The position numbers and the translations under genes were made by a program. Shown one piece after another: positions 46,907 to 64,000 of a DNA stretch of 64,000 nt. The stretch is from Seonamhaeicola algicola. Its GTDB lineage: Bacteria; Bacteroidota; Bacteroidia; Flavobacteriales; Flavobacteriaceae. The stretch lies in contig NZ_VOSC01000025.1 of assembly GCF_007997385.1 (NCBI RefSeq), forward strand, positions 310,292 to 374,291. The letters run 5' to 3'. Numbering within the stretch: the stretch's first letter is position 1; the number at the start of each line of letters is the position of its first letter. The notes below the pieces were generated by a model. That model did no database searches. It was not told the origin of the DNA and saw only the letters and a program-made list of their open reading frames with translations.

Positions 46907-47004
46907 AATTTGTAGTATAATTACTATATAAACCGATGTTTTTTTCTTAAAACAATAAGTTGTAATTGAAACATTTTTTATTCACCAAGGTTTTATAAAA
47001 GTTT

Positions 47005-47012
47005 TATCTTTG
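47005..47012 (+). promoter_or_regulatory. -7 promoter element of argS
   Basis: TATCTTTG matches TAnnTTTG exactly. The -33 region is a T-rich stretch without a clean TTTG. The predicted transcript starts about 15 bases before the argS ATG. Confidence 0.6.
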
Positions 47013-47033
47013 CCACCTAAAAAAGTACAGTAA

Positions 47034-48821
47034 ATGAATTTACAAGAAACCTTATTTAACCAAGTAAAGCAAGCCGTTTTAGCATCATATAACGTAGAAA
47101 TTGAAACTGTAGAGTTTCAGGCAACCCGTAAAGAGTTTGCAGGTGATATAACAGTAGTAGTTTTTCCTATGTTAAAATTTGTAAAAGGTAACCCAGTTCA
47201 AATTGGCGAAACTATTGGTGCTTATTTAGTTGATAATGTAGAGGATGTTAAAGCTTTTAATGTGGTTAAAGGGTTTTTAAATATTGAAATTAGTGATTCA
47301 TTTTACCTAAATTTTTTCAATGACATAAAAAACAATACAACTTACGGTTTTGTACAATCTAAAGCTAATAACAAAGCTGTAATGGTAGAGTATTCTTCGC
47401 CTAACACCAATAAACCATTGCATTTAGGCCATATTAGAAATAACCTTTTGGGTTATAGTGTTGCTGAAATTTTGAAGGCTAGCGGACAAAAAGTGTACAA
47501 AACGCAAATAATTAATGATAGGGGTATTCATATATGTAAAAGTATGTTGGCTTGGAAACGTTTTGGAAATGGTGAAACACCCAAAACTACAGGTTTAAAA
47601 GGAGATAAGTTAGTAGGTAACTATTACGTAAAGTTTGACCAAGAATATAAAAAAGAAATAGAGGCTTTAATTGCCAATGGTAAAAGTGAGGAAGATGCTA
47701 AAAAAAATGCACCTATTTTATTAGAAGCCCAAGAAATGCTACGTAAATGGGAAGCTGGTGATGCCGAAGTAGTTGCGCTGTGGGAAACAATGAATGGTTG
47801 GGTTTACAATGGTTTTAACCAAACTTATAAAAATTTAGGGGTAGATTTTGATACGCTTTATTACGAAAGTAACACCTATTTGTTAGGAAAAGAATTTGTA
47901 GCCGAAGGTTTAAAAACTAGCGTGTTTTATAAAAAAGAAGATGGCTCAGTTTGGTGCGATTTAACTGAAGACGGGCTTGATGAGAAAATTGTGCAACGTG
48001 CCGATGGAACTGCCGTTTACATGACACAAGATATTGGTACAGCTATTCAGCGTGTAAAAGATTTTCCTGATGTTACAGGCATGGTTTACACAGTAGGTAA
48101 CGAGCAAGATTACCACTTTCAGGTGTTATTTTTAATACTTAAGAAATTAGGATTTGATTGGGCTGAAAATTTATACCACTTAAGTTACGGCATGGTAGAT
48201 TTACCTAGCGGAAAAATGAAAAGCCGTGAAGGAACTGTTGTTGATGCCGATGATTTAATAGTTGAAATGGCTTCAACTGCCGAAGAGATTTCGAAAGAAT
48301 TAGGAAAACTTGAAGGCTACTCTGAAGAAGAAAAACAAGCGCTTTACAAAACCATTGGTTTAGGTGCACTTAAATATTATATTTTAAAAGTAGATCCTAA
48401 AAAACGTATTTTATTTGATCCTAAAGAATCAATTGATTTTCAAGGAAATACAGGGCCTTTTATTCAGTATACTTACGCAAGAATACAGTCTATATTAAGA
48501 AAAGCAAATGTGAATGATAGTGATGTTTTAAATACTTCAGAAGAGTTTTCATTACATGCTAAAGAAAAGGAGCTTTTAAAGCAAATACAGCAATTTCCAG
48601 AGGTAATTCAAAACGCAGCTGAGCAGCATAGTCCTGCAATAATTGCTAATTATACTTATGATTTAGTTAAAGAGTTCAATTCATTTTACCAAAACGTATC
48701 TATTTTAGGAGCCGACAATGAGGTTGAAAAAACGTTTAGAGTTCAGCTCTCAAAAACTGTAGCTAATACCATAAAAAATGCATTTAGTGTTTTGGGTATT
48801 AACGTGCCAGAAAGAATGTAA
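47034..48821 (+). CDS. argS: Arginine-tRNA ligase
   Basis: 595 residues. The class I signature HLGH in SSPNTNKPLHLGHIRNNLLG (residues 130-133) and the KMSKS counterpart GKMKSREGTVVDADDL are present. The N-terminal domain starts LFNQVKQAVLASYNVEIETV and the C-terminal anticodon-binding DALR domain ends in NTIKNAFSVLGINVPERM. It charges tRNA-Arg in the cytoplasm. The gene is separated from the divergent histidine kinase by a 462-bp spacer and ends at a terminator shared with the GH2 gene. Confidence 0.97.
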   Translation: MNLQETLFNQVKQAVLASYNVEIETVEFQATRKEFAGDITVVVFPMLKFVKGNPVQIGETIGAYLVDNVEDVKAFNVVKGFLNIEISDSFYLNFFNDIKNNTTYGFVQSKANNKAVMVEYSSPNTNKPLHLGHIRNNLLGYSVAEILKASGQKVYKTQIINDRGIHICKSMLAWKRFGNGETPKTTGLKGDKLVGNYYVKFDQEYKKEIEALIANGKSEEDAKKNAPILLEAQEMLRKWEAGDAEVVALWETMNGWVYNGFNQTYKNLGVDFDTLYYESNTYLLGKEFVAEGLKTSVFYKKEDGSVWCDLTEDGLDEKIVQRADGTAVYMTQDIGTAIQRVKDFPDVTGMVYTVGNEQDYHFQVLFLILKKLGFDWAENLYHLSYGMVDLPSGKMKSREGTVVDADDLIVEMASTAEEISKELGKLEGYSEEEKQALYKTIGLGALKYYILKVDPKKRILFDPKESIDFQGNTGPFIQYTYARIQSILRKANVNDSDVLNTSEEFSLHAKEKELLKQIQQFPEVIQNAAEQHSPAIIANYTYDLVKEFNSFYQNVSILGADNEVEKTFRVQLSKTVANTIKNAFSVLGINVPERM

Positions 48822-48840
48822 AAGCACAATAAGTTATAAA

Positions 48841-48867
48841 AAAACCAGAGTTATAACTCTGGTTTTT
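48841..48867. terminator. Bidirectional terminator between argS and the GH2 gene
   Basis: AAAACCAGAGTTA (48841-48853) and TAACTCTGGTTTT (48854-48866) form a perfect palindrome with A-runs on one side and T-runs on the other. It can stop transcription from both convergent genes. Confidence 0.88.
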
Positions 48868-48887
48868 TTATTTCATATAATTGTAAT

Positions 48888-51422
48888 TTATTCCATACTA
48901 ATATTAACTGTATCACTTGAACAGTTATTGGCACTTGCTGTTATTTCAACATTGCCCACTTTATCTTTTGCTTGAATTATTAATAAAATTTTACCATTAT
49001 GGGTTGTGCCTCTGTTTGATTGAAATTTCTCTACACTATTTTTCCATCCACTATCTACACCTAGTAATTTAGCTTCACCATTTATTGTGAATGTAATTTT
49101 TTTATCATCACTTTTTACTGGATTTCCATTATCATCAAATAATTCGGCTACAATATGTACAACATCATTGTTATTTGCTTTAATAGTTTTGGTGTCATAA
49201 GTAAGTTTAATTTTTGAAGCTTTTTTTGCAGTTATTAGCTGGGTTTCTATACTTTGCCCATTTTTTGTGCCTTTTGCAGTTAAAGTGCCTTCTTCATAAG
49301 GAATAGCCCATTTATAAATATTTCCAACGGTTTCGGTTAGTTTTTGTTTGCCAAGAGATTTCTTGTTTAAGAAAAGTTCAATATCATCACAATTTGAATA
49401 AATTTCGGTAACAACGGTTTCTCCGTCATTGTAATTCCAGTGTTCATTTACATCTTGCCAACGCCATAAATAGTGTTTCCAACCGTCTTTTTTCTTTTCT
49501 ATGAGTGCGTCTTTTTCAATTTTGTATAATGATTTATCTAAAGTTTGTGTAGCCATGTGTATCATAGGTTCATTTGTCCATAATGATTTCATCATAAAAT
49601 AAGAACCTTTTGGGAAACTAGCTGTATTTAACATGCCAGATGGTTGTACTCTTGTTGGCCACTCTTGCCTTATTTCTCCCATATAATCGGCACCCGTCCA
49701 TAAAAATGTACCAGCAATAAAAGGGCGCTCCATTATGGCTTTCCATTCATGGTATTGGGCAACATTTTCGGTGCCCATAATTGGTAAATTGGGGTAGTTT
49801 TTGTGTCCATAATCGTAAATAACCCTTCTGTAACTATAACCAATAATATCTAAAGCATCGGCGTAACCAGACTCGTAGCTAGACGAAGGTAAAATACAGT
49901 TGGCTATTACGGGGCGTGTGGTATCAATTTCTTTAGTCCATTTTGATAGTTTTTGTGCAGTTTTACCAATATCATATTTACCTCTGGGTAATGTTTTCAT
50001 GAGGTGTTTAATTTGATCTATTGAGTGTGGTGGTTCAGACCAAAAATAATTTCCTTGCCAAGTCATTTTGTCAAAAAATCCTGTTGAGGCTGCATTTCTT
50101 GGGTACGTCCATTCTATTTCGTTACCTATACTCCATTGAATAATAGAAGGGTGGTTACGGTGACTAAGCATAACGTTGGTTAAATCTTTTTTTGCCCACT
50201 CTTGAAAGTGTTCGCCATAACCTCGCGTAATATAGTCTGTGCTTTTTTCTTCCCATTTATTATATCTTTTGTCTTTTGGGTTATCCCATTCATCAAAAAA
50301 TTCATCTTGCATAAGCATACCCATTTCGTCACAAACTTCAAGCAAAACTTTTGAAGCGGGATTGTGCGAGCTTCTAATAGCATTACAGCCTCCGTCTTTT
50401 AGTATTTGTAGCCTGCGTTTCCATACGCCTTTTGGTACTGCAGTGCCAACTAAACCAACGTCATGATGTAAACAAACACCTTTAATTTTTATGTTTTCGC
50501 CATTTAAAAAGAAACCCTTATTAGCATCAAACTTTATGCTTCTTATACCAAAACGTGTTTTATGAGTATTAATAATAGTGTTATTTTTTTTTAGTGTGGT
50601 AACAGCTGTATATAAATTAGGTGTATTAATATCCCATAGTTTTGGTGTGTTTATTTCAACTTCTTGAGAAATGCTTTTGCTATTGTTTTGGGTTACTGTT
50701 ATGGTGTTTGTTGTGTTTGTAACTTGGTTTTTAGCTTCATCAAAAAATGTGGTAGTAACTTCAATGGTTTCATCTGTTTTAAAAGCATTTTCAATAGTTA
50801 CTTGTATATTTACGGTTGCTTTTTCTTTAGTAACTTTTGGAGTTGTTATAAAAGTGCCCCAAACCGGTATGTGTAGTTTTTTATTGGTTATTAAAGAAAC
50901 GTCTCTGTAAATACCCGCGCCTGTGTACCAGCGGCTATCAGCATACCTAGAGTGGTCTATTTTAACGGCTAGAACATTGTTTTTACCATTTTTGTTTAAA
51001 TATTTAGAAATTTCAAAATAAAATGGAGAATATCCGTAAGGGTGGAAACCTAATTTATGCCCATTTATAAAAATTGTAGAATTGTTGTAAACGCCGTCAA
51101 AAAGTACATAAACTAACTCGTCATTAGAAATTTGTTTATTGAAAGTTTTGGTATAATAGCCATAGCCTTCGCTTTTAATATAACCCGTTGCCCAAGCGTC
51201 TTTTCCTAATGATTTATCAAATTCCCCTTCAATAACCCAATCGTGGGGTAAGTTTACTGTTTTATATTGGTTATCTTTAATAGCACTGAAGTCAACTTCT
51301 TTTTCGCTTAAAAAAAACTTCCAATTTAAATTAAAGTTTTCACTAGGTGTTTTAGTTTCGTTTTTACTACACGCTAGAAGTAGTATAGATAGCATGTAAA
51401 TAATTAGATGTTTGTTGTTCAT
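48888..51422 (-). CDS. Glycoside hydrolase family 2 beta-galactosidase-like lipoprotein
   Basis: 844 residues. The lipobox is [11 protein letters not shown]. The GH2 sugar-binding domain ([24 protein letters not shown], then [13 protein letters not shown]) is followed by an Ig-like domain and the TIM barrel. WSIGNEIEW holds the catalytic acid/base Glu and [13 protein letters not shown] the likely nucleophile Glu. A DUF4982-like segment near residue 640 ([17 protein letters not shown]) and a C-terminal Ig-like domain complete it. The group includes beta-galactosidases; the exact substrate is open. It lies 120 bp downstream of the TonB receptor gene in the same direction. Confidence 0.88.
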
Positions 51423-51447
51423 GTTTGTTTAGTTTAAGCATCAAATA

Positions 51448-51486
51448 TCTATAAGTATTATAAAAAATATTTATAATACTTATAGA
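51448..51486. repeat. Perfect AT-rich inverted repeat between the receptor and GH2 genes
   Basis: CTATAAGTATTATAAA (51449-51464) and TTTATAATACTTATAG (51470-51485) are exact inverted copies around AAATA, extended by one T-A pair. It lies in the 120-bp gap upstream of the GH2 gene, so it may be an operator or a weak terminator. Confidence 0.75.
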
Positions 51487-51542
51487 ATAAAACTTAACAA
51501 TAAATGTAAAAGCACAAATTTAACTTTAATAAAGCTATACAG

Positions 51543-53858
51543 TTAAAAATACACCCTAAAACTTACGTTTGGTGTAATGCCTAAAGATTCGTTTTCAATG
51601 GTATTAATATTACCGTCATTGTCACGTGTGTGGTATGTGTTTATTATGTTTTTTCTGTTTAAAATATTCCAAACAGAGGTGCCAATGGAGGCATAGGTAG
51701 TTCTTGAAAGATTAAATTTATAAGTTGCAGAGCAATCTGTTCTTAAATAATCTTTTAAGTTGCTATTATTTGGGCTTTTGTACACTATTGCGTTGCTTTG
51801 GTTTTGGGTTTCTGCAGGTTGCGTTGTGGGTTTTCCTGAGTTCCAGTTTACGCCCAAAGCCAATTTAAAATCATTAAAAGTATATGTGCCAGCAAACGTT
51901 ATGGCGTGCCTAATATTTGTGTTGTTAGGGAATTTTTTACCGTTATTTAAGTTTGAAAAGATATAATTATTATCACTAAATGAGTACGAAACCCATGTGC
52001 TAACTACATCATTAAATTGTTTGTTTAATAAAATATCAATGCCTTTAATTTCATAACTACCGGTGTCATTTACAAATTGATATTGGTTTTGAAAACCCTG
52101 ACTACGGGTTGTAATGCCATTAACCTTTTTTATATAAGTTTCGGCACTTGCCATAAAACCATTTTTTTTAAAATGAATACCAACCGATGCTTGTTTACTT
52201 TTTAAAACAGGAATATTAGTGTTGTTTGAAAGTACCCAACGGCGTTTTTCAATGCCTAAAAAATCATTTTGTAAATCTATAATTTGTGATGTGGTTTGAC
52301 TTTTATATTCGCCTAAAATTTCAAACCTAAAGTTATTTAAAAACCGTTGGCTAAAACTTAAACGCGGTTCAGCAAATAACATGCTAAATTTTTTAATATA
52401 ATTTAAACGTGTGCCAAATATTAGTTTGGTGTTTGCGCCGTATGATAATAAATTAGTTTCGGCATATACAGCATGGCTTCTTATAACTTCTTTTATATAA
52501 CTTCTAAAATTAGGGTTGTTTACATCTTCTAAATTACTAATGCCAACCTCGGTAAATTGGTAGCCACCATTAATTTTTAATTGGTTATTATGTGTGTAGT
52601 TTATATCAATTTTTGCAGCACCATCATATACTTCATTTTCTTGTACTAAGCGTTGGTTGTTTAAAATATCGTGGTTGGTGGCATCTAAATCATAGTTTGA
52701 AACATATATTAAAGCGGTTGTTTGTAGTTGGCTATTCCAGTCTTTTATATATGTTATACCTGCAGCCGTATTTTGCTGCCATAGCTTGCTGTTTAATACT
52801 TCGGGCCTGTTGTTTATGGTAGATTGTTCTTCATAATTCAACCTATTATTAACGTTTAAAGCATGAAAGCGAAGCTTATCTGTTTTTGAAATATCAAATA
52901 AGAATTTAGCCGAAATATCATAAAAATAAAATGATTCGTTTTGCGAAATGGTATTGGCGCCTTTGTTATTATTTGTAAAATCTGAATCTTGAAAAATACG
53001 CTTAAAATACTGATTGTAAGTACTGGTTTCAATAATATCGGTAACAGAACGACGTGTTGAAAGTTGTAATTCGGTATTTTTTGAAAGCGGAATTTTTGCA
53101 AAAATATCGGCATTTATAAAATTAACACCAGCACCAGTTTTAAACTCATTATCAATAGTATTGGGTAATTGCATGTCTATAACACTAGAAATACCATCGC
53201 CATACTTGGCACTTGACCCATTTTTATAGATGTTTATTTTTTTTGTTATATGCGGATTAAATGCGGAAATAAGTCCGAAAAAGTGCCCAGATTGATACAT
53301 TTTTATACCATCCCAAAGTATTAAGTTTTGGTCGTGTGTGCCGCCTCTAACATTTATATTTGATACGGTTTCATCTGTACTTAAAATACCCGGAAGCGCT
53401 TGTATAGTTTGTAAAACATCGGGTTCAATTAAACCAGGTAGAATACCAAAAGCTTCAGGTTTTATAGTAACAGTGCCGTCATTTAATTTTGTTAAACCAG
53501 TGGTAAGATAATTGCTTATTATAACTTCATCTAAATTTTGAACTCTAAAACTAGAGCGCTTTTTTTTTGCAGGTTTTATAACAATAAATCTATTGTTTAA
53601 AAGTTCAAAATTTAAATGCGTTTCTTTTTCAAGTGTATTTAAAGCATCTTTTAAGGTTGCATTGTTATTGGGTAATTTGGCTTGTTTGTTTAGTATTGTT
53701 TTATCAGCGTAAGAAAAACTAATGTTATATTTTTTTTCTAATGTGTTTAAAATTGCAGAAAGCGGTTGTTTTTCTTTTTGAATGTTTTGTGCTTTTAAGA
53801 TAAAAACATTTAAAAAAAACAAGAAAAAAGTAAGTGATAATAGCTGTTTACTGCGCAC
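51543..53858 (-). CDS. TonB-dependent outer membrane receptor with STN domain
   Basis: 771 residues. A signal peptide (LLSLTFFLFFLNVFILKAQ) precedes an STN (secretin/TonB N-terminal) domain (SAILNTLEKKYNISFSYADK, FELLNNRFIVIKPAK). A plug (IQALPGILSTDETVSNINVRGGTHDQNLILWDGIKM) and a beta barrel follow. An STN domain marks receptors that signal through an anti-sigma factor such as FecR. It overlaps the end of fecR by 11 bases, so the two are coupled. The ligand cannot be read from the sequence; siderophores and glycans are both known for this class. It is not a SusC: no carboxypeptidase-regulatory domain and no SusD follows. Confidence 0.9.
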   Translation of the reverse strand: MRSKQLLSLTFFLFFLNVFILKAQNIQKEKQPLSAILNTLEKKYNISFSYADKTILNKQAKLPNNNATLKDALNTLEKETHLNFELLNNRFIVIKPAKKKRSSFRVQNLDEVIISNYLTTGLTKLNDGTVTIKPEAFGILPGLIEPDVLQTIQALPGILSTDETVSNINVRGGTHDQNLILWDGIKMYQSGHFFGLISAFNPHITKKINIYKNGSSAKYGDGISSVIDMQLPNTIDNEFKTGAGVNFINADIFAKIPLSKNTELQLSTRRSVTDIIETSTYNQYFKRIFQDSDFTNNNKGANTISQNESFYFYDISAKFLFDISKTDKLRFHALNVNNRLNYEEQSTINNRPEVLNSKLWQQNTAAGITYIKDWNSQLQTTALIYVSNYDLDATNHDILNNQRLVQENEVYDGAAKIDINYTHNNQLKINGGYQFTEVGISNLEDVNNPNFRSYIKEVIRSHAVYAETNLLSYGANTKLIFGTRLNYIKKFSMLFAEPRLSFSQRFLNNFRFEILGEYKSQTTSQIIDLQNDFLGIEKRRWVLSNNTNIPVLKSKQASVGIHFKKNGFMASAETYIKKVNGITTRSQGFQNQYQFVNDTGSYEIKGIDILLNKQFNDVVSTWVSYSFSDNNYIFSNLNNGKKFPNNTNIRHAITFAGTYTFNDFKLALGVNWNSGKPTTQPAETQNQSNAIVYKSPNNSNLKDYLRTDCSATYKFNLSRTTYASIGTSVWNILNRKNIINTYHTRDNDGNINTIENESLGITPNVSFRVYF

Positions 53859-54747
53859 GCTTTAAAGTTATATTACCGTTATTATTGCTGTATGTTAATT
53901 GTAAAGGTAATGTAATAGATTTTAAAGCTACATCAATGTTGTTGTGTGTAAAACTGCCCGTAAAAAGCTCTGCAGAATTTACGCCAACAAGGGTAATATT
54001 AACATTATATTGCCTTTCAAACTCAGCAATAACTTGTTTGTATGGTAAACTTTTAAACTTACTTTCATTATTTAACCACGAAGGTGTTGTGTTACTTTCT
54101 TTTTGTTTAGCAATTTTTTTCCCATCAATAATTAAAAAACTGTCGCCAGGTTTTAATTTAGTTTCAATAGAATTAAAAGTAACACCAACTAACCCTTCGT
54201 AGCATATAACTTCAAAATAATTAGCTCTTTGTTTTACGTTAAATTGGGTGCCGTAAACAGTTACGGTGCCGGCTTCAGTTTTTACATTAAATGAAGCGCC
54301 TTTGGCCACTTTAAAAAAAGCTTCGCCTTGTAATTTAACTTCACGATTATTTTTCCATTTGCTTTTATTGTACACTAAAACAGATTTGGCATTTAAAAAC
54401 ACATTAGAAGCATCGGGCAATGCAACTTCGGTTTTTTGTGCCATATTAGTTGTAATAGTTGTGTTTAGTGTAGTTGTGTAATAATAAAGCCCAAAACAAA
54501 TGGTAATAATTGCGGCAGCGCGCATAAATGGTTTTATCCAGTTTTTTTGCGACTTTTTAGTTGTTTTTATGGTGTTAAGTACATTGTTTAATGCTTGTTT
54601 GTCATCAAAATTAGGAGCTTTAAAGGCTTTAATGTTAGTGTTTAATTGTATTAAATCATTATAGTCTTCAAGTTTTTTAAATGCTTGAAGTTCCTGATCA
54701 TTCAAATCATTATTTAACCATTTTAATATTAAAGCTTCTCTGTCCAT
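53848..54747 (-). CDS. fecR: FecR-type anti-sigma factor
   Basis: About 299 residues. A cytoplasmic N-terminal anti-sigma region (REALILKWLNNDLNDQELQAF) leads to a membrane helix (AAAIITICFGLYYYTTTL) and the periplasmic FecR domain (TEVALPDASNVFLNAKSVLVYN, GEAFFKVAKGASFNVKTEAG, GTQFNVKQRANYFEVICYEG). A DUF4974 C-terminal domain follows (VIAEFERQYNVNITL). It holds the sigma factor until the receptor signals. I chose the ATG at 54747, because the TTG at 54762 lies within the proposed ECF -10 element. Its own promoter precedes it, 94 bp after the sigma gene. Confidence 0.9.
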   Translation of the reverse strand: MDREALILKWLNNDLNDQELQAFKKLEDYNDLIQLNTNIKAFKAPNFDDKQALNNVLNTIKTTKKSQKNWIKPFMRAAAIITICFGLYYYTTTLNTTITTNMAQKTEVALPDASNVFLNAKSVLVYNKSKWKNNREVKLQGEAFFKVAKGASFNVKTEAGTVTVYGTQFNVKQRANYFEVICYEGLVGVTFNSIETKLKPGDSFLIIDGKKIAKQKESNTTPSWLNNESKFKSLPYKQVIAEFERQYNVNITLVGVNSAELFTGSFTHNNIDVALKSITLPLQLTYSNNNGNITLKRAQ

Positions 54748-54762
54748 TTTCTCTGTATTCAA

Positions 54763-54796
54763 TTATAAAACAAGTTACTTTTATTTTTTCCTACCC
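54763..54796 (-). promoter_or_regulatory. Candidate ECF-sigma promoter of fecR
   Basis: On the minus strand GGGTAGGA (54789-54796), 15 bp, TTGTTTTATAA (54763-54773). The same two words with the same spacing lie upstream of the divergent lipoprotein gene at 55465-55498. The words do not match the housekeeping consensus. Confidence 0.6.
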
Positions 54797-54856
54797 TTGT
54801 ATTTGTTTTTTTTCTAAGATTTAAATTTTTTAGTTTTTTGCTTACTAAAACTATCA

Positions 54857-55375
54857 CTACAACTCTTTAATGTCTTTTCGTAATTTTTCCAAAGCACCAT
54901 AAATACGTTTTTCTACCGCTTTTGTTGAAATACCTAGTATTTCGGCAATTTCTTTAAAACGCTTTCCTTCAATACGGTTCATTAAAAATGCAACGCGTTG
55001 TGGTTCGGTTAAGTTAGCCAAAGCCCTTTGTAATTTTTTATTGTATTCGTTTTCTTGCATTAAAAATTCAGGGCTTTCATTGGTGCTAAGCTTGGGTTTT
55101 GCTATTTGTTGGTGCTTTAAAACAACCTTTTGGTGTGCAACCTCATTGAGCATTAGGTTGTTAGCAGTGGTAAACAAAAAGCTTTTAGCTTTGTCTGGTG
55201 TTACTTTGCTGCAATTTTCCCAAAGTTTAACAAATGCCTCTTGGGTTTTGTCTTTTGGGTTTAAAAAATTGCCAAACTTATAGTATAGAAAATTGTGTAA
55301 ATCTGTGGCGTGTTTTTTAAAAATAGACGAAAAAATACGCTCTTCACAAATATTATCGCGTAGTTGTTTGCTCAT
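54857..55375 (-). CDS. RNA polymerase ECF sigma factor (FecI type)
   Basis: About 172 residues from the ATG at 55375 (a GTG at 55396 is the alternative). Region 2 runs IFSSIFKKHATDLHNFLYYKFGNFLNPKDKTQEAFVKLWENC. Region 4 is LTEPQRVAFLMNRIEGKRFKEIAEILGISTKAVEKRIYGALEKLRKDI, with the helix-turn-helix for the -35 element. There is no anti-sigma on the same transcript in front of it; fecR follows, and the TonB receptor follows fecR. The gene is divergent from the acidic lipoprotein gene, with 156 bp between the starts I chose. Confidence 0.92.
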   Translation of the reverse strand: MSKQLRDNICEERIFSSIFKKHATDLHNFLYYKFGNFLNPKDKTQEAFVKLWENCSKVTPDKAKSFLFTTANNLMLNEVAHQKVVLKHQQIAKPKLSTNESPEFLMQENEYNKKLQRALANLTEPQRVAFLMNRIEGKRFKEIAEILGISTKAVEKRIYGALEKLRKDIKEL

Positions 55376-55464
55376 TTTAAGTTTAGTTAATGCCACTAAA
55401 ATAAAGGTTTTAGCACTTTGTTTCAGGGTTTAAAATTAATTTTTTTGATTTTTTTTAACAAAAA

Positions 55465-55498
55465 GGGTAGGAGTTTTTAAACTTAAATTGTTTTATAA
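55465..55498 (+). promoter_or_regulatory. Candidate ECF-sigma promoter of the acidic lipoprotein gene
   Basis: GGGTAGGA (55465-55472), 15 bp, TTGTTTTATAA (55488-55498), identical in both words and spacing to the site upstream of fecR. The predicted transcript starts just before the frame, which supports the ATG at 55532 rather than the one at 55508. Confidence 0.6.
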
Positions 55499-55531
55499 CC
55501 AAAAGCTATGTGTAACCCAAAATTAAATACT

Positions 55532-57283
55532 ATGAAAACTAAATGGAGAATTTTACTAATGCTACCTTTTTTTGCCCTAATGTTATTTACAGCATGCCAA
55601 GAAGAAGTAGTTGAAATTACAGAACCATCAGAATCTGAGGCCTTAGTTGCTGAGGCAGAATTAACAGCCTTTGTTAGTGCTACCGCTAAAATGGATGGCT
55701 CTAAAGATAATATTATAGACCAAGCAAGCTGTATATCAGTTAAATTGCCACTTACGGTTATTGTAAACGGTTTAGAAATTATTGTAGATTCTGAAGAAGA
55801 TTTTGATGTCATTGAAGCCATTTTTGATGAATTTGATGATGATGAAGATAATTTAGATATGATTTTTCCAATTACAGTAATTAATGCTGAACATGAAGAA
55901 ATTACCGTTAACAATGAAGATGAACTTGAAGCTTATGTTGAAGCCTGTGCTGGCGAAAACGAAGAGGATGATGATATTGAATGTATAGATTTTAACTATC
56001 CAATATCATTCTCAATTTTTAATGCCGATTTTCAAATAATTGACACCATTCAAATTGAAAACGATAAGCAATTGTTTCGTTTCATGAAACGCATAAAAAA
56101 CAAAGAAGTAATTGCAAGTATTAATTACCCTGTAAGCTTAGTATTAGCCGATGGTACTCAAATTGAGGTTAACAATAATCAAGAACTTCACAATACAATT
56201 AAAGACGCTAAAAATGCTTGCGATGAAGATGATGATAATGACCATAATGATGACGATTTTACTAAAGAACGTTTAGATGAATACCTAAAAAAATGCCCAT
56301 GGTTAGTTAAAGAATTTAAAAGAGATAACCAAGATAATACTGAAGGCTTCTTTGAGTATGCAATTAATTTTAAGGAAGATGGTGTAGTAATAATGAGAGA
56401 CAGAGAAGGCGATATTTTAACAGGAAATTGGGAAACCAGAATTACCGATAGAGGAGCCAAAATAAAAATGACTTTTGAAAACTTAGCAGACTTTACACTA
56501 GATTGGTATGTGTATGAAATTGAAGAAGGTAAAGTTAAAATTTATCAAGAAGGCGGTAACCGTATTATTTTAAAACGTAATTGTGATGTTGTTATTGAAC
56601 ACACAAAAGAACGTGTAGAAAACTACCTAAAAGAATGTTTGTGGCGTATTACAAAAATTAATGTAGAAGGAACTGATAATGATAAGCAATACATTGGAAC
56701 GCCTTTAAAATTTTACGATGATAATGTAGTTAAAATTAGAGTTGACGGACAATTAATTGAAGGCACTTATGAAGTAATAGTAAGAAATGCTGGTATAGGG
56801 TTAGAAATTAATTTAGAGGGCAGGCCAAATTTAAAATTACAATGGTTAATAACATTTCTTTCTGAAAACTTAATAAAACTTGAAAATGTAAATAACCAAA
56901 TGGTTTTAGCTAGACATTGCCCAGAGCAAGACCAAGATATAAACTACATTTTAGATGTATTAGTTTCTAGTGAATGGAAAGTTGCAAACTACACAGATAT
57001 GGGGGCAGATGAAACTCAAAACTACGCAGCATATGTAATTGGGTTTAATGAAAACGGAAAAGTATTTGCAGAAGGCAATGGCAACAACTTCTACGGCTCA
57101 TGGTTATCATACAGAAACGAAGGATTGTTTTTAGGTTTAAACTTTAAAACACAAGATGAACCTTTTAGTGAATTTACACACCGTTGGAAAATTAAAGAAA
57201 TATCACCTAACAGAGTAGAGTTAAAAGACTATTCATCTACAGGCGAAATAGAGCGTATTCTGGTACTAGAAAGCACACAATAA
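55532..57283 (+). CDS. Large acidic lipoprotein with internal repeats, function unknown
   Basis: About 583 residues from the ATG at 55532. A lipobox (LMLFTACQEE) places it on a membrane. Two N-terminal repeats of about 80 residues follow (LPLTVIVNGLEIIVDSEEDF with FPITVINAEHEEITVNNEDEL, and NYPISFSIFNADFQIIDTI with NYPVSLVLADGTQIEVNNNQ). Acidic runs lie between them (DEDDDNDHNDDD). Three tandem lipocalin-like repeats come next, each with a WxVxxF/W start and a C-terminal ILxRxC or ILVLES end. I do not recognise a named family. The upstream motif shared with fecR suggests control by the neighbouring sigma factor. Confidence 0.8.
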   Translation: MKTKWRILLMLPFFALMLFTACQEEVVEITEPSESEALVAEAELTAFVSATAKMDGSKDNIIDQASCISVKLPLTVIVNGLEIIVDSEEDFDVIEAIFDEFDDDEDNLDMIFPITVINAEHEEITVNNEDELEAYVEACAGENEEDDDIECIDFNYPISFSIFNADFQIIDTIQIENDKQLFRFMKRIKNKEVIASINYPVSLVLADGTQIEVNNNQELHNTIKDAKNACDEDDDNDHNDDDFTKERLDEYLKKCPWLVKEFKRDNQDNTEGFFEYAINFKEDGVVIMRDREGDILTGNWETRITDRGAKIKMTFENLADFTLDWYVYEIEEGKVKIYQEGGNRIILKRNCDVVIEHTKERVENYLKECLWRITKINVEGTDNDKQYIGTPLKFYDDNVVKIRVDGQLIEGTYEVIVRNAGIGLEINLEGRPNLKLQWLITFLSENLIKLENVNNQMVLARHCPEQDQDINYILDVLVSSEWKVANYTDMGADETQNYAAYVIGFNENGKVFAEGNGNNFYGSWLSYRNEGLFLGLNFKTQDEPFSEFTHRWKIKEISPNRVELKDYSSTGEIERILVLESTQ

Positions 57284-57340
57284 TTAAAAATAGAAACTTG
57301 GATTTTCGGTTTTTAGGTTAATTAGCTAAGTTTCCTATTA

Positions 57341-57369
57341 AAAGGCTGTCAATATTGGCAGCCTTTTTT
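57341..57369 (+). terminator. Terminator after the acidic lipoprotein gene
   Basis: AAAGGCTGTCAA (57341-57352) pairs with TTGGCAGCCTTT (57355-57366), with one G-U pair, followed by a T run. It separates this unit from ffh. Confidence 0.88.
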
Positions 57370-57414
57370 ATGTATTTTACAAAAAACAAACTTTATAAAT
57401 ACAGGGCAATTCAC

Positions 57415-57422
57415 TAAATTTG
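57415..57422 (+). promoter_or_regulatory. -7 promoter element of ffh
   Basis: TAAATTTG matches TAnnTTTG. A CTTTA about 20 bp upstream could serve as the -33 element. It lies 25 bp before the ffh start. Confidence 0.55.
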
Positions 57423-57447
57423 CAATTCTTAAAATTTAAAGAAAATT

Positions 57448-58776
57448 ATGTTTAATAATTTAAGTGATAAATTAGATAAAGCTTTACACGTATTAAAGGG
57501 GCACGGAAGTATAACCGAAGTAAATGTTGCTGAAACCCTAAAAGAAGTAAGACGCGCTTTATTAGATGCCGATGTTAACTTTAAAATAGCCAAAGATTTT
57601 ACCAACAAGGTAAAAGAAAAAGCACTTGGGCAAGATGTATTAACTACATTACAACCAGGGCAATTAATGGTTAAAATTGTAAAAGATGAGTTAACACAAC
57701 TTATGGGTGGTGATGCAGCAGGTATTAATTTATCAGCTACACCAAGCGTAATTTTAATGTCTGGTTTACAGGGTTCTGGTAAAACTACCTTTTCGGGTAA
57801 ACTAGCAAACTATCTTAAAAATAAAAAAACTAAAAAACCGTTATTAGTAGCTTGTGATGTGTATCGTCCTGCAGCAATAGATCAGTTACATGTTGTTGGA
57901 GATCAAATAGGTGTTGAGGTTTTTAGCGATAGAGGAAATAATGATCCTGTAGCAATTTCGCAAGCAGCAATAGCACATGCAAAATCTAACGGGCATAATG
58001 TAGTCATTATTGATACCGCAGGTCGTTTAGCCGTTGATGAAGCTATGATGACTGAAATATCAAACATTCATAAAGCCATCCAGCCACAAGAAACCTTGTT
58101 TGTGGTAGATTCTATGACGGGGCAAGATGCCGTTAACACAGCAAAAGCATTTAATGATGTATTAAATTTTGATGGTGTTATACTTACCAAATTAGATGGT
58201 GATACACGTGGTGGTGCAGCAATTTCAATTAAATCTGTTGTAAATAAACCCATTAAATTTATTGGTACAGGTGAAAAAATGGAAGCTATTGATGTGTTCC
58301 ATCCTTCACGTATGGCCGATAGAATATTAGGCATGGGAGATGTTGTGTCTCTTGTTGAAAGAGCTCAAGAACAGTTTGATGAAGAAGAAGCAAGAAAACT
58401 TCAAAAGAAAATTGCAAAAAACAAGTTTGGCTTTGATGATTTCTTAAAACAAATTCAGCAAATAAAGAAAATGGGTAACATGAAAGACCTTATTGGTATG
58501 ATACCTGGCGCTGGAAAAATGATGAAAGATGTAGATATTGATGACGATGCTTTTAAAAGTATTGAAGCTATTATCCACTCAATGACGCCAAAAGAAAGAG
58601 AAAACCCATCAATAATTAATGCAAGTAGAAAAAAACGCATAGGTAAAGGCTCAGGGACTTCAGTACAAGAGGTAAACCAATTGTTAAAACAATTTAACCA
58701 AATGAGTAAAATGATGAAAATGATGCAAGGTGGTGGTGGCCGTAAAATGATGCAAATGATGCAAAACATGCGTTAA
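57448..58776 (+). CDS. ffh: Signal recognition particle protein Ffh
   Basis: 442 residues. The N domain (MFNNLSDKLDKALHVLKGHGSITEVNV) precedes the G domain: GLQGSGKTT near residue 106, DVYRPAAIDQL, DTAGRLAVDE and TKLDGDTRGGAAISI. The C-terminal M domain is methionine-rich (MSKMMKMMQGGGGRKMMQMM) and binds the SRP RNA and signal peptides. With FtsY it carries nascent membrane proteins to SecY. The SRP RNA gene is not visible near it. folD follows on the same strand after 106 bp. Confidence 0.97.
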   Translation: MFNNLSDKLDKALHVLKGHGSITEVNVAETLKEVRRALLDADVNFKIAKDFTNKVKEKALGQDVLTTLQPGQLMVKIVKDELTQLMGGDAAGINLSATPSVILMSGLQGSGKTTFSGKLANYLKNKKTKKPLLVACDVYRPAAIDQLHVVGDQIGVEVFSDRGNNDPVAISQAAIAHAKSNGHNVVIIDTAGRLAVDEAMMTEISNIHKAIQPQETLFVVDSMTGQDAVNTAKAFNDVLNFDGVILTKLDGDTRGGAAISIKSVVNKPIKFIGTGEKMEAIDVFHPSRMADRILGMGDVVSLVERAQEQFDEEEARKLQKKIAKNKFGFDDFLKQIQQIKKMGNMKDLIGMIPGAGKMMKDVDIDDDAFKSIEAIIHSMTPKERENPSIINASRKKRIGKGSGTSVQEVNQLLKQFNQMSKMMKMMQGGGGRKMMQMMQNMR

Positions 58777-58803
58777 TCTTGTTAAAAGTTAAAAGTTAAA
58801 AGT

Positions 58804-58830
58804 GTCATGCTGAGCGCAGTTGTGGCATCT
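58804..58830. repeat. Dispersed GTCATGCTGAGC-type repeat
   Basis: GTCATGCTGAGCGCAGTTGT...GGCATCT lies between ffh and folD. The GTCATGCTGA...GCATCT frame recurs in intergenic DNA of many Bacteroidota genomes; I rely on memory for that, so it needs a search. Three AAAGTTA-type words lie just upstream. Confidence 0.5.
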
Positions 58831-58882
58831 TAAAAAATAAAAAATAAAACTTGGCGTCTTTTACGCCTTTGCTAGAAAAACT

Positions 58883-59758
58883 ATGACAATTTTAGACGGT
58901 AAAAAAGTTAGTAACGATATTAAAGAAGAAATAGCAGAACACGTAGCTGCTATGGTAACAAAAGGTGAAAAAGTACCTCATTTAGCCGCCATATTAGTTG
59001 GTAGTGATGGTGCAAGTATGACCTATGTAAATGCAAAAGTAAAAGCCTGCCAAAAAATAGGTTTTAATTCTACGCTAATTGAATTACCCGAATATACTTC
59101 AGAAGAAGAATTGTTAGAAAAAATACACGAGTTAAACAACAACAATGATATTGATGGTTTTATAGTACAGTTGCCATTGCCAGAACAAATAGATGAGCAA
59201 AAAGTGCTAATGGCTATAGACCCTGATAAAGATGTAGATGGTTTTCACCCAACAAATGTAGGCCGAATGGCTTTAGATTTACCAACTTTTTTACCAGCAA
59301 CACCATACGGAATTATGGAGTTATTGGAGCGTTACCAAGTTGAAACATCAGGTAAAAATGTTGTGGTTATGGGGCGTAGCCATATTGTAGGACGCCCAAT
59401 GAGTATTTTAATGAGCCAGAAACGTAAAGCAGGCGACGCTACAGTTACAGTAGTTCATAGTCGTTCAAAAAACTTAAAAGAAATTACTTTAGCTGCCGAT
59501 ATTATTGTGGCTGCCATAGGTATATCAGAGTTTTTAACCGGCGATATGGTTAAAGAAGATGTTGTGGTTATTGATGTTGGTATTACGCGTGTACCAGACC
59601 AAACCAAAAAAAATGGTTACCGTTTAGCAGGCGATGTTCATTTTGAAAGCGTAAGTAAAAAGGCAAGCTATATTACACCAGTTCCTGGTGGTGTTGGCCC
59701 AATGACTATTGCTATGCTTTTAAAAAATACGCTTTTAGCAAGAGAAAGAAAGGCCTAA
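58883..59758 (+). CDS. folD: Methylenetetrahydrofolate dehydrogenase/cyclohydrolase FolD
   Basis: 291 residues. [28 protein letters not shown] with the catalytic Lys in the YVxxK motif, [36 protein letters not shown] (NADP-binding) and [19 protein letters not shown] give all FolD blocks. It converts 5,10-methylene-THF to 10-formyl-THF in one-carbon metabolism. A GGCGT-CTTTT-ACGCC hairpin lies about 18 bp before the start at 58853-58867, and may affect initiation. Confidence 0.97.
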
Positions 59759-59825
59759 TTGTTAAAATAAGGAAAGTGTATTTGTTTTTATAATAGGTTT
59801 TTTAGTAAAGCTTAATAAATAATAT

Positions 59826-60560
59826 TTACTTTTTCCAATTTAAAAATACGTTTAAAAAATGTTCTTTTTTACGAGTAGATACGGGTATTTTTTTGCCATT
59901 TTTTAAATAAATAATACCAGATTTATCATATTTATCTATAAATTTTAAGTTAACCATAAAAGATTGGTGCGGTCTTATAAACGAAGCTAATGTTAAGCGT
60001 TCTTCAAATTCTTTTAATGTTTTTGAAACTAAATATCTTTTTTCATTACTACAATGAAAAGTAGTGTAGCCTTTATCAGATTCGCAAAACAAAAGATCAT
60101 TTAAATCAATAACTTGAAAACTATCTTGTAGTGATAAAATTAATTTAGAATCTTCATCATTCCATATATCTTTTACAGTTTTTATTTGTTGTTTCTGTTT
60201 AGCTGTAGGTATAGCTGTAACTTTTTTTACAGCAGTTTCAAGTTCTTCTAAATCTACAGGTTTTAAAATGTAATCAACAGCTCCAATTTTTATAGCTTTT
60301 AAAGCATATTCTTCATAAGCAGTAATAAATATAATTTTAAAATCTAGATGCTCTGTTTGTTCTAAAAAATCAAAGGCATTACCATCTGTTAGGTTAATAT
60401 CTAAAAAAATTAATTCTGGTTTACAGCTATTTGTTACAATTACAGCATCTTTAACAGATTCACATTCGCCAATTACGTCAACTTTGGTGTCTATTAATTG
60501 TAATAAATTAAGTAAACCTTGCCTTATGTATGATTTATCTTCTACTATTAGTGCTTTCAT
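59826..60560 (-). CDS. LytTR-type response regulator
   Basis: 244 residues. The receiver domain has MKALIVEDKSYIRQGLLNLL at the start and the phosphoacceptor D54 in IFLDINLTDG; the switch Thr/Lys lie in IFITAYEEYALKAIKIGAVDYILKPVDL. The C-terminal LytTR DNA-binding domain reads LLFCESDKGYTTFHCSNEKRYLVSKTLKEFE. Its partner kinase gene lies upstream with only 4 bp between. Targets are not visible in the window. Confidence 0.93.
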   Translation of the reverse strand: MKALIVEDKSYIRQGLLNLLQLIDTKVDVIGECESVKDAVIVTNSCKPELIFLDINLTDGNAFDFLEQTEHLDFKIIFITAYEEYALKAIKIGAVDYILKPVDLEELETAVKKVTAIPTAKQKQQIKTVKDIWNDEDSKLILSLQDSFQVIDLNDLLFCESDKGYTTFHCSNEKRYLVSKTLKEFEERLTLASFIRPHQSFMVNLKFIDKYDKSGIIYLKNGKKIPVSTRKKEHFLNVFLNWKK

Positions 60561-60564
60561 TAAT

Positions 60565-62730
60565 TTAAATTATTATGTAAGGAATTTCAAGTGTAACTAG
60601 AGTGCCTTGTTTTCCATAAATTTGTTTGTCTTCAATCTTTACAGAACCAGGTATCTTTAAATCTTTTGAAAGTATTTTAATACGTTCTGAAGTTATAGTT
60701 GTAGATAATGATTTTTTGTGCTTTGCTTTACTGTAGCGTTGGTAGTTAACACCAACACCATTATCACAAATAGTACAAATTAATTTTTTATTTAAATATC
60801 TTAAGCGAATATCTATTTTTTTGTTTTCTTTTTGATTAATAAAAGCATGTTCTACGGCATTTTCTACAAAGGGTTGAATGAGCATTGGTGGTACTTCAAA
60901 TAATTTTGTATTTACAGTGTTTTCAACTGTAATAGTACATTTATACGCTTCATTTTCTAGATTTTGAAGTGTTAAATAATCTTGAACAGCTCTTAATTCT
61001 TGAGTTAATGAAACTGTTTTGTCTCTTGAGTTTTCTAGGGTTAGCCTAAGTAATTTTGAAAATTTTGATAGATAATGAATTGATTTTTTTTCTTCTTTAT
61101 TTAAAATCATGCCCTGTAATACTGAAAGCGAATTGAAAATAAAATGAGGTGTCATTTGAGAGCGTAATAACTTTTGTTCCATGACTACATTTTGAGTTTT
61201 AGATTTTACATTCTTTAATTTTTGGGCAAAAATAATAGAGCCTAGTATAATAGAGATTAACAGTATTCCAATAATGGCCCATAAATAGTGCCGTTTAGAT
61301 TTTTCTAAATTTTGAGAAGTAGTTTGTACTGTTTTTTTTAATTGTAATTCTTTAATACTAGCAGAATCTAGTGCTTGCTTATATTTATACTCGTACTCTA
61401 ATTGGGTAATTTTTTCAATGTTTTCTTTATTAAAAAGACTATCGTTTAATTTTTTATACTCTATATGGCTAACTAAAGATTTTTTATAGTTTCCTGTTTC
61501 TTTGTAGATATTAAAAAGTAGTTTTTCTGTATCTCTTTGTATATCTGTTAATTTTAATTTATTGGCTATTTTTTGGCACTTTAAACCAAAAATTAAAGCC
61601 TTATTAAATTGCTTTTTTTTAAAATAAATTTTTCCTAAACCTAGATAAGATCCGCATAACCCGCGCTTATTTTCAATTTCAATGTTTATATTTTTTGCAT
61701 TCTCAAAATAAGAATTAGCTTTATGTAGCTCATTTAGTTCAAAATAGATTTCGCCTATTTTGTTTAAAGTTTCGGCTTCATCTGATCTGTTGTGTTTTTT
61801 TATGTATACATTCAAAGCGGCAGTAAAATACTCAAGTGATTTCTCATATTCCTTTTTGTATTTATAAGATTCTCCTAGGTTGTGAGAAATTGATCCGTAA
61901 TTATCATGGTTAGGTTCATTTAAGGCTTTTTTATGAAATGAAATAGCTTTGTCATAATCTTGTATACGTATATAAATATTACCTATTGATATTAGGGCGT
62001 CACTTATATTTTTTGGTTCTCTAAATTTCTTAGCATTTTCTAGTGCCTGGTTTAAATATTTTAGTGCCAAAGGATGATTACCTTGGTGGCTGTACATATT
62101 GCCTATAGAGGTTAAACATTCCTGAAAAATCTTATGATTACCATTTTTATCACTTATTAATAAAGCCTTGTTGTAATAAGAAATACATTCATCAAATTTG
62201 CCAATTTTATAATAGTAATACCCAATATAATATAAATCTTCTTCAACTTTTTCATTTCCAATACGTTCTCTATATTTTACACGCTGTTTCCTATAATGTA
62301 TGGCATTATTAAAATTACCTTGGTTATTGCTAAAAATACTTAAATTCCTATAAGAATTTATAACTTGTTGATGCATGTTTATTTCATTAAACAATGAAAT
62401 AGCTTCTTTGTAATACGTATCTCCAAATTGGTAATTTGAATTCCTGCTAATAATTAAACCTTTGTAAAATAAACTGATAGCTATACCTTTTTTAAATTTT
62501 ACTTCTTTTGAAATGGTTTCAGCTTCATCTAGAAATTTTATATTTTCCTGAAAATCATTTTTATAATTATTTTCAACTATTTTTAGGAGAAGATTAACTC
62601 TTAATGTATCTTTTTTGTGCTGTAATTTCAACTCATTTTTTAAACTATCAATTTTTTTGGTCTGAGCAAAAACGTACGTGTTACATAAAATGAGGATTAG
62701 CATCACTAGATGTATGTGGAATGTTTTCAT
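60565..62730 (-). CDS. TPR sensor histidine kinase of the LytS/YehU type
   Basis: About 721 residues from the ATG at 62730. A signal peptide (FHIHLVMLILILCNTYVFAQ) is followed by some ten TPR units (for example ECLTSIGNMYSHQGNHPLAL and NHKIFQECLTSIG), a membrane helix (YLWAIIGILLISIILGSIIFA) and the His-kinase domain with the H-box RSQMTPHFIFNSLSVLQGM. An ATPase domain follows with EVPPMLIQPFVENAVEHA (N-box) and CDNGVGV (G-box). The TPRs probably sense peptides or proteins in the periplasm. It pairs with the response regulator downstream. Confidence 0.92.
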   Translation of the reverse strand: MKTFHIHLVMLILILCNTYVFAQTKKIDSLKNELKLQHKKDTLRVNLLLKIVENNYKNDFQENIKFLDEAETISKEVKFKKGIAISLFYKGLIISRNSNYQFGDTYYKEAISLFNEINMHQQVINSYRNLSIFSNNQGNFNNAIHYRKQRVKYRERIGNEKVEEDLYYIGYYYYKIGKFDECISYYNKALLISDKNGNHKIFQECLTSIGNMYSHQGNHPLALKYLNQALENAKKFREPKNISDALISIGNIYIRIQDYDKAISFHKKALNEPNHDNYGSISHNLGESYKYKKEYEKSLEYFTAALNVYIKKHNRSDEAETLNKIGEIYFELNELHKANSYFENAKNINIEIENKRGLCGSYLGLGKIYFKKKQFNKALIFGLKCQKIANKLKLTDIQRDTEKLLFNIYKETGNYKKSLVSHIEYKKLNDSLFNKENIEKITQLEYEYKYKQALDSASIKELQLKKTVQTTSQNLEKSKRHYLWAIIGILLISIILGSIIFAQKLKNVKSKTQNVVMEQKLLRSQMTPHFIFNSLSVLQGMILNKEEKKSIHYLSKFSKLLRLTLENSRDKTVSLTQELRAVQDYLTLQNLENEAYKCTITVENTVNTKLFEVPPMLIQPFVENAVEHAFINQKENKKIDIRLRYLNKKLICTICDNGVGVNYQRYSKAKHKKSLSTTITSERIKILSKDLKIPGSVKIEDKQIYGKQGTLVTLEIPYIII

Positions 62731-62861
62731 TTTACTAATAAACAATTTAATTTTGATAGTAAATAAAATAATTAGAGCTCTATATTCTCGGTCATTATAA
62801 AAATTAACCGCAAACTTTTTTAAAAGTATGCGGTTAGTTAATAATTAGATGTTGCGTTATG

Positions 62862-64000
62862 CTACTTTACAAATTTTTTAGCAATTCTACCTTCATTAAA
62901 TTGTAACTCTAAAATATAAATACCATTTGATAATGTTTCTGTTGAAATAAAGGTTGCCTTACCTTGAGTAATTTTTGCGCCAGTTATATTGTAGATAGAA
63001 TACTTTTTTAAAGTTAAACCATTATCTGATGTTATTTCTAAACCATTATCTTTTGTAATTACTTTAATTTGGTTATTAAGCTCAAATTGTGAAGCACTTA
63101 ATGTGTTAACAGAGTTAAAACCAGTCCATAATGCTCCAGGGTTTGTAACGTAAGCACCTTCCGTTCCTGAAGGTATATGTAGGTTAACACTACTTCGTGA
63201 TAGATTGAATGTATCTGAATTAGGGTTACTGCTTGTACTTATGGTAGGGGGCACTATGCCTTCACAATAAACATCTGTTATAATATCTCCCATTCCTCCA
63301 AAAGCAATAACTCCAATATTGGTAACACTTTCAGGTATAGTTATTGTTGTTAAACCTGTAAAACGAAATGCATAATCGCCTATAACAGAAACATTATTTC
63401 CTAATGTTATATTTGTCATATTTTGGTTTTGTGCAAAAGCACCATTATTAATAGTAGTTACATTGTTTGGTATAGTAACTGAAGCTAAATTGTTAATAAA
63501 GAAAGCTTTTTCGCCAATATTTGTAAGAGTACTGGGCAAGGTCACATCTGTTAGTCCTTTGTTTTCAAAAGCTTGGGTTCCTATTTCAATAACGCTATAG
63601 GTTATTAAACCATTTGGAATTGTAGTAGGAATATTTACTACGGTTCCGCCAGTAGTATTGTAATCTATTACTTTTACAGTGCTATTAGCAGCCGAAATAA
63701 CTTCGTATGTAATATAATTATAAACATAAGTATCTCCTGTATTTAAATTTTCTGTTACGGTATTAAAACCTGTCCACAGAGCACCAGAGTTTGTAACATA
63801 AGCTCCCGTTGTACTTGTTGGTATGTATAAGTCTATGTTGCTTCTGTTTCCTCCTACAGCAAATGAATCGCTATTACTTGCTGCGGTTGTTATTGTTGGA
63901 GGTGCTGTAGCCAATGAGGTAACTGTTGTTAAGGGGTTTCCTCTAAAAGCACCAATACCTATGCTGTTAACATTTTCAGGTATGGTAATACCTTGTAATT
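62862..64000 (-). CDS. BspA-like leucine-rich repeat surface protein with T9SS tail, N-terminus missing
   Basis: The gene is cut by the right edge; about 379 residues are visible. BspA-like repeats follow each other (LTDVTLPSTLTNIGEKAFFI, NLASVTIPNNVTTINNGAFA, NMTNITLGNNVSVIGDYAF). A module with YIPTSTTGAYVTNSGALWTGF occurs twice (near the visible start and again before the tail). The C-terminus has a type A T9SS sorting domain (SIYNITGAKITQGK, LSNGIYILELQFNEGRIAKKFVK), so it is exported through the type IX pathway and held at, or shed from, the cell surface. Binding targets are unknown. An internal TTG at 63914 is not the start. Confidence 0.85.
   Translation of the reverse strand, partial: LQGITIPENVNSIGIGAFRGNPLTTVTSLATAPPTITTAASNSDSFAVGGNRSNIDLYIPTSTTGAYVTNSGALWTGFNTVTENLNTGDTYVYNYITYEVISAANSTVKVIDYNTTGGTVVNIPTTIPNGLITYSVIEIGTQAFENKGLTDVTLPSTLTNIGEKAFFINNLASVTIPNNVTTINNGAFAQNQNMTNITLGNNVSVIGDYAFRFTGLTTITIPESVTNIGVIAFGGMGDIITDVYCEGIVPPTISTSSNPNSDTFNLSRSSVNLHIPSGTEGAYVTNPGALWTGFNSVNTLSASQFELNNQIKVITKDNGLEITSDNGLTLKKYSIYNITGAKITQGKATFISTETLSNGIYILELQFNEGRIAKKFVK

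Follow-up and report, generated by a model that had tools for sequence, protein, structure and literature searches.

In Bacteroidota, ECF sigma factors rank among the major signalling switches, and to our knowledge the target promoters of most of them are not known. The same gap is stated for the seven ECF sigma factors of Flavobacterium psychrophilum in the portion of the transcript map used here (PMC9723704). The stretch of Seonamhaeicola algicola DNA analysed here (64,000 nucleotides of contig NZ_VOSC01000025.1, hereafter the window) poses the question in a compact form, as a sigma factor gene lies between two copies of one bipartite motif, one directed at a fecR gene and the other at a divergent gene for an acidic lipoprotein. 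Are these motifs the promoters of the sigma factor, and how far does its regulon reach?

The sigma gene (54857..55378, minus strand) encodes 173 aa from its ATG and matches Pfam Sigma70_r2 at 37.4 bits and Sigma70_r4_2 at 57.4 bits (cut-offs 24 and 25.7). A protein of about 170-190 aa that combines regions 2 and 4 of sigma-70 is the signature of ECF (group IV) factors. Beside it, on the same strand, lies the gene of a FecR-type anti-sigma factor (53848..54747, ATG at 54747), with the Pfam families FecR and FecR_C above cut-off (PF04773, 66.9 bits; PF16344, 43.5 bits). The 3' end of fecR is overlapped by a same-strand gene for a TonB-dependent receptor (51543..53858, start approximate), whose N-terminal region is FecR_C/STN-like: Plug (37.9 bits) and FecR_C (37.7 bits) are above cut-off, and STN scores 26.9 bits, under its cut-off of 28.4; the predicted promoter site precedes fecR. 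The divergent gene (55532..57283, plus strand, ATG at 55532) encodes an acidic lipoprotein of 583 aa with a lipobox-like LFTAC, recognised by eye, and without a match to any Pfam or NCBIfam family. Its AlphaFold2 model, built from 25 sequences (pLDDT 75.7, pTM 0.52), has a beta-rich C-terminal part, and Foldseek returned weak matches, the best to a DUF4822 protein (E 9.1e-9, TMt 0.33) and another to 5byp (E 1.2e-3, TMt 0.58 across one domain). The receptor gene is followed directly, on its own strand, by a gene for a glycoside hydrolase-like lipoprotein, recognised by eye (48888-51422, minus strand), which may or may not be a member of the receptor operon; no SusD, the receptor partner expected in PUL-type ECF/FecR/SusCD systems, was recognised by eye in the list of open reading frames for 48000-64000. 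Further away, a repeat protein (62862-63998, minus strand) has a C-terminus that by eye resembles a type IX secretion sorting signal. An Rfam search of 47000-60000 gave no match.

The motif, GGGTAGGA-N15-TTGTTTTATAA, is present in two copies with 0 mismatches, at 54763-54796 on the minus strand and at 55465-55498 on the plus strand, just as the earlier note had described it: the words and their spacing are identical and the spacers differ. Each spacer opens with a short A/T run (AAAAAT, GTTTTT). The first copy lies between the sigma gene and fecR and is oriented toward fecR, with the predicted -35 word GGGTAGGA at 54796-54789 and the predicted -10 word TTGTTTTATAA at 54773-54763; the second is oriented toward the lipoprotein gene, with its -35 word at 55465-55472 and its -10 word at 55488-55498. 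No other match at up to 3 mismatches was found in the window, and shuffled versions of the window gave a mean of 0.04 matches, with 0 of 100 shuffles containing two. Across the whole genome (3,705,852 bases), the full pattern with as many as 3 mismatches allowed matched 6 times (twice perfectly, four times at 3 mismatches) and its reversed control 3 times, so that at up to 2 mismatches the window pair are its sole copies. Shuffles and whole-genome count together rule out a chance origin of the pair. The shorter core GGTAGG-N17-TGTTNTAT occurs twice at 0 mismatches, once at 1 and 118 times at 2; the last class is mostly background, because the reversed core gave 81 matches in total. With a spacer one base longer there were 0 exact matches and 5 at 1 mismatch, the latter number being the same in the reversed control. 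A housekeeping promoter was likewise rejected, in agreement with the note: PMC9723704 gives TAnnTTTG as the flavobacterial consensus, and neither word conforms to it.

We then turned to the orthologous loci. Reference genomes searched with the sigma protein as query returned 411 relatives, and the best 80 of the 411 (74-88% identity) were taken. Tblastn detected fecR in 77 of these 80 loci, the receptor in 77 and the lipoprotein in 63, some of the lipoprotein matches being weak (29-38% identity). The three loci without a fecR match are short loci, and 12 of the 17 without a lipoprotein match belong to Psychroserpens; in Psychroserpens loci (e.g., L099, L102, L105 and L108) the lipoprotein-side promoter is kept in the absence of a tblastn relative of the window lipoprotein. 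Of the loci with an aligned fecR start, all 77 carry a GTAGG-N17-TGT(T/C) site no more than 150 nt from it, 73 of them with a TGT-to-ATG distance of 23-25 nt; of those with an aligned lipoprotein start, all 50 carry a site no more than 250 nt from that start, 42 of them at 41-47 nt. Both sites thus preserve orientation, spacing and distance to two start codons. The corresponding distances in the window (25 nt for fecR, 43 nt for the lipoprotein) match the medians of the relatives (24 and 44). This agreement favours ATG 54747 as the start of fecR and ATG 55532 as that of the lipoprotein gene. An extra gene is inserted between the sigma gene and fecR in 8 of the 80 loci, where the site remains beside fecR. 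By eye, the inserted gene differs among these eight (L041, L043, L049, L051, L061, L070, L074 and L094), and the interval is perhaps an insertion hot spot.

The same genome carries a second set outside the window (contig C29, about 395-402 kb) with a lipoprotein, sigma, fecR and receptor gene in the same arrangement, its sigma factor being 47.5% and its FecR 42% identical to those of the window. The two promoters of this paralogue carry a matched pair of their own, GTAGGG-N16-TGTCTTA, unlike that of the window. This motif has 3 exact copies in the genome, all within its own cluster, and 5 more at 1 mismatch, compared with a single match at up to 1 mismatch for its reversed control. The third exact copy precedes a gene for a secreted His-rich protein (2507-2965 of locus L182). 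Among 30 loci with His-rich homologues, from other genomes and this one, the upstream words are GTAGGG/TGTC in 15, GTAGGG/TGTT in 3, GTAGGA/TGTT in 1 and GTAGGT/TGTT in 1, with none found in 7 and 3 not readable; in one genome (G155) the His-rich homologue stands behind a window-type GTAGGA/TGTT promoter, as if the sigma factor had been exchanged. A 1-mismatch copy of the paralogue motif (C29, 397732-397760, minus strand) lies 80 bp 5' of the paralogue lipoprotein promoter on the same strand, and the two are perhaps tandem promoters.

We extended the comparison to 142 loci (the best 80, 60 more distant ones at 51-64% identity, the paralogue and the window) and, with 54 further sigma loci, to 196, all picked as best sigma matches and not at random. 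With a gap of 16 after the 7-base word, 137 of the lipoprotein-side and 131 of the fecR-side regions of the 196 loci contain GTAGG-N17-TGT(T/C), and with any other gap from 12 to 20 the GTAGG pattern is found in at most 3 regions; the looser GTAG-gap-TGT has wrong-gap matches in up to 29 of 142 fecR-side regions versus 98 at the right gap. In an alignment of the window sigma with solved ECF sigma factors, the residues of interest are 60, 153, 156, 157 and 160. Residues 156-157 align with the VRSRI/VKTRI positions of the solved factors and, together with the loop around residue 60, presumably correspond to promoter-base contacts of E. coli sigma-E.

Over the 196 loci the -35 word follows the lineage of the sigma factor (GTAGG, TCAGGA or TTGGGA). 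Where residue 157 is lysine, GTAGG occurs at both promoters in 124 of 156 loci, at one in 19 and at neither in 13, and TC(A/G)GGA occurs in none of the 156. Tyrosine at this position goes with TC(A/G)GGA at both promoters in 28 of 35 loci and on at least one side in all 35, and histidine with T(T/C)GGGA on one or both sides in 4 of 4 (this pattern has a one-sided match in 4 of the 35 tyrosine loci too, through the word TCGGGA, which satisfies both descriptions). GTAGG is found in 0 of the 39 loci with Y or H at 157, that is, in none of either class. The 37 such loci in the 142-locus set include 29 with the same other word at both promoters (TC(A/G)GGA in 27, T(T/C)GGGA in 2) and 8 with the word on one side. 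Three loci have words of their own at both promoters, GGGTAA (L218), TGTGGA (L212) and GTAGTA (L262), with the -35 word one base closer to TGTT in L212 and L262; they are the only K157 loci of the 142-locus set without GTAGG, and among the sigma factors listed two of them are the only ones without E156 and the third is the only one with S153. At the -10 end, 9 sigma factors carry D60. Eight of them have a site, with TGTC at one or both promoters in every case. Among the 117 K157 sigma factors with TGTT at both sites D60 is absent, and one TGTC sigma factor (L280) has V instead of D at position 60.

From the 142 loci we fixed a rule, before the promoters of the 54 further loci were read: Y157 predicts TCAGGA, H157 predicts TTGGGA, and K157 predicts GTAGG, ending in GGG with S160 and otherwise in GGA. 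It forecast GGA for 36 loci, GGG for 16 and TCAGGA for 2. TCAGGA was seen at both sites in one locus and on the fecR side in the other (L301, whose other side reads TGAGGA); GGG was seen on at least one side in 10 of its 16 loci, the other 6 having no element and none having GGA; and the 36 GGA forecasts yielded GGA at both sites in 3, mixed ends in 2, GGG on one or both sides in 27 and no element in 4. For K157, the GTAGG forecast was thus borne out at one or both promoters in 42 of 52 loci, and the Y157 forecast in 2 of 2; 7 of the 10 K157 loci without a GTAGG element are at 46% identity or below. The 'otherwise GGA' part of the rule failed, with GGA at both sites in 3 of 36. A form drawn up post hoc (GGA with Y160, GGG with H160 or S160) describes the 129 loci with both sites as follows: Y160 goes with GGA in 67, mixed ends in 20 and GGG in 3, and H or S at 160 goes with GGG in 39 of 39. 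On a sigma tree computed without the recognition-helix columns, the -35 class changes 2 times and residue 157 changes 2 times, so the agreement between word and residue is an agreement of clades; for residue 160, an independent-pairs test had too few pairs.

We conclude that the two motifs are very probably promoters used by the ECF sigma factor whose gene they flank; this factor would drive fecR together with the receptor gene on one side and the divergent lipoprotein gene on the other. The earlier note had read the locus in this way, and the conserved placement of the sites, the paralogue's possession of its own pair and the lineage-linked word all argue for it. The pair could also be a two-half-site operator for a transcription factor common to both genes. 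Activator boxes may be bipartite, directional sites as well; we nevertheless consider an operator improbable, given that the site occupies a promoter position, with TGT 23-25 nt 5' of the fecR ATG in 73 of 77 loci and one main spacing, and that the words vary with the lineage and with residues of the adjoining sigma factor. We give next to no credence to the idea that the two sites are functionless leftovers of an intergenic duplication: the words are identical and close together, but the spacers do not match as the words do, and in many genera both sites persist, each at a constant distance from its own gene.

A larger, though still minor, share of probability goes to an overlapping network in which several co-resident ECF sigma factors read these words, so that the regulon is not private. 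Sigma-70 region 4 is matched 30 times in this genome, 25 of these over the cut-off, the paralogue word differs just partly from that of the window (GTAGGG/TGTC versus GTAGGA/TGTT), and partially overlapping ECF regulons have been suggested for F. psychrophilum in the consulted portion of PMC9723704. Against such overlap, each word has few copies in this genome, and among the 28 genomes with at least two systems classed on at least one side (a comparison that leaves out 5 genomes whose second system is unclassed), 27 have systems that differ in words or -10 bases, the exception being G131, which overlaps on one side. We put at about even the further proposal that the duplicated lipoprotein-sigma-fecR-receptor cassettes are insulated systems, each with a private word at both promoters that is set by a few sigma residues and with the anti-sigma factor, not the sigma factor, in the loop; matched words of their own would insulate co-resident paralogues from one another. 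In such insulated systems, residue 157 would set the -35 word (GTAGG with K, TCAGGA with Y, TTGGGA with H), with residues 153 and 156 also taking part, residue 160 would set its end (mostly GGA with Y, GGG with H or S) and residue 60 would set the -10 word. These residue-to-base assignments are offered as hypotheses, and they lead to the prediction that promoter choice tracks residue 157 or 60.

On the promoter reading, region 4 of the sigma factor would recognise the -35 word GGTAGGA and region 2 the -10 word TTGTTTTAT. By analogy with the FecI/FecR/FecA model, the TonB-dependent receptor would sense a surface signal and the FecR-type anti-sigma factor would then release the sigma factor, which, once freed, would transcribe fecR with the receptor gene as well as the divergent lipoprotein gene. 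Since the fecR site lies between the sigma gene and fecR, the predicted targets are the anti-sigma/receptor genes and the lipoprotein gene, to the exclusion of the sigma gene itself. Because the fecR promoter is downstream of the sigma gene, the response would raise the inhibitor and the receptor and leave the sigma factor as it is, a self-limiting loop. Autoregulation of the sigma gene was considered and rejected: a site pointing at it was seen in just 2 of the 196 loci, one of them the in-genome paralogue (L182), and neither has the typical word.

How far the motif reaches was examined in 299 genomes of the family, 99 of which have a site at up to 2 mismatches and 208 a sigma homologue at E of 1e-30 or below. 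Site counts total 164, and the reversed pattern gave about 34 by hand count. Among the 150 sites listed, 74 have a homologous sigma gene no more than 2 kb away, where a rough estimate would expect about 0.07. These 74 fall into two configurations exclusively: 44 sit upstream, on the strand opposite the sigma gene, and 30 downstream, on its own strand. This placement speaks for the promoter reading. A site at up to 2 mismatches is near 29 of the 46 listed sigma homologues at 75% identity or above and near 19 of the 41 at 65-74%, from which it follows that the full pattern is stricter than the part conserved in relatives.

The other 76 of the 150 listed sites, which tell against the promoter reading, are away from the sigma homologues compared. 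We inspected 36 loci holding a site (16 returned automatically and 20 chosen mainly by few mismatches), of which 4 are near a sigma gene and 32 are left. In 17 of the 32, the site is outside long frames and a reading frame begins within 100 nt; 16 of these 17 frames have a signal-peptide- or lipoprotein-like N-terminus, in a by-eye count with no matched control, and the exception is phosphoenolpyruvate carboxykinase-like. In 6 of the 32 the site is within a long frame. To judge by the N-termini encoded behind the sites, additional surface-protein genes of other genomes are probably under the control of this motif too, or of a closely similar one. In three loci (L191, L198 and L205, sites near 1500), window-type sites lie 22-76 nt 5' of lipoprotein genes that by eye are DUF4382-like, and these sites are away from every sigma homologue compared.

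In this genome, the regulon probably consists of these two transcripts alone. The small closed regulon that the earlier note envisaged thus fits S. algicola; in other genomes the motif also stands before further lipoprotein or secreted-protein genes. A possible third target of the window sigma is a core site with 1 mismatch on another contig of this genome (C32, 20396-20426, minus strand), 5' of a conserved micro-ORF. This element, seen also in other loci (L154, L360-L368), resembles an ECF promoter with a -35 word that is mostly CTAGG or CTGGG (GGTAGGA in L366) and a TGTTATATAA-like -10, and it is followed by a leader with an invariant ACGCAACC block and then a micro-ORF for 28 hydrophobic aa. 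It has matches in all 6 other genomes of the genus that were searched and clear ones in two further genomes; Rfam gave no match in 4 such loci.

Signalling by FecI/FecR/FecA is already well known, as the portion of PMC9249621 used here sets out. Like those systems of Escherichia coli and pseudomonads, the window clusters an ECF sigma factor, a FecR-type anti-sigma factor and a TonB receptor with a signalling-like N-terminus. Unlike them, it has a predicted promoter between sigma and fecR, which would make the anti-sigma factor itself a target, and a second predicted target in the divergent lipoprotein without a named family. The FecI equivalog NF041727 scores 52.7 bits against the window sigma, with a cut-off of 260. 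In NCBIfam, the window sigma and the paralogous one score highest with TIGR02985 (Sig70_bacteroi1, a Bacteroidetes sigma-70 subfamily), at 106.8 and 126.1 bits respectively, both under its cut-off of 126.4. In Bacteroides thetaiotaomicron, a second promoter type with -10/-30 elements has been mapped, according to the consulted portion of PMC7366714, and a later study put the corresponding motif 2 forward as an ECF element and noted TGTT near -10 at two promoters assigned to SigW-1, although the SigW-1 motif was not significant by that study's own test (PMC12596196, in excerpt). Our pair resembles motif 2 in an architecture apart from the housekeeping promoter and in TGTT near -10; a GGTAGGA -35 word and a fecR/lipoprotein pairing were not encountered in the excerpted description of motif 2. 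Another comparison is with SM6 of F. psychrophilum, a promoter class of Flavobacteriaceae that has a short -10 box and is attributed to ECF sigma factors; its box is CGT, in place of the TGTT seen here, and the genes behind it include those of secretion systems. It is the one ECF-type motif in the excerpted transcript map, whose authors allow that other ECF-controlled starts may await discovery (PMC9723704). In the literature searched, with most subscription journals outside the search, we found no description of this promoter pair.

Because each sigma gene is flanked by two promoters with the same word, the targets become readable by comparison, and the comparison reads out private promoter words for a whole group of sigma factors. 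Paralogues that share a genome but not a word amount to a natural experiment on the divergence of sigma-promoter specificity that follows duplication, and the matched but different words of the relatives suggest how such regulators avoid cross-talk. If the cassettes are indeed insulated systems, the promoters of uncharacterised ECF sigma factors of this family in Flavobacteriaceae would be readable from nothing more than the sigma sequence.
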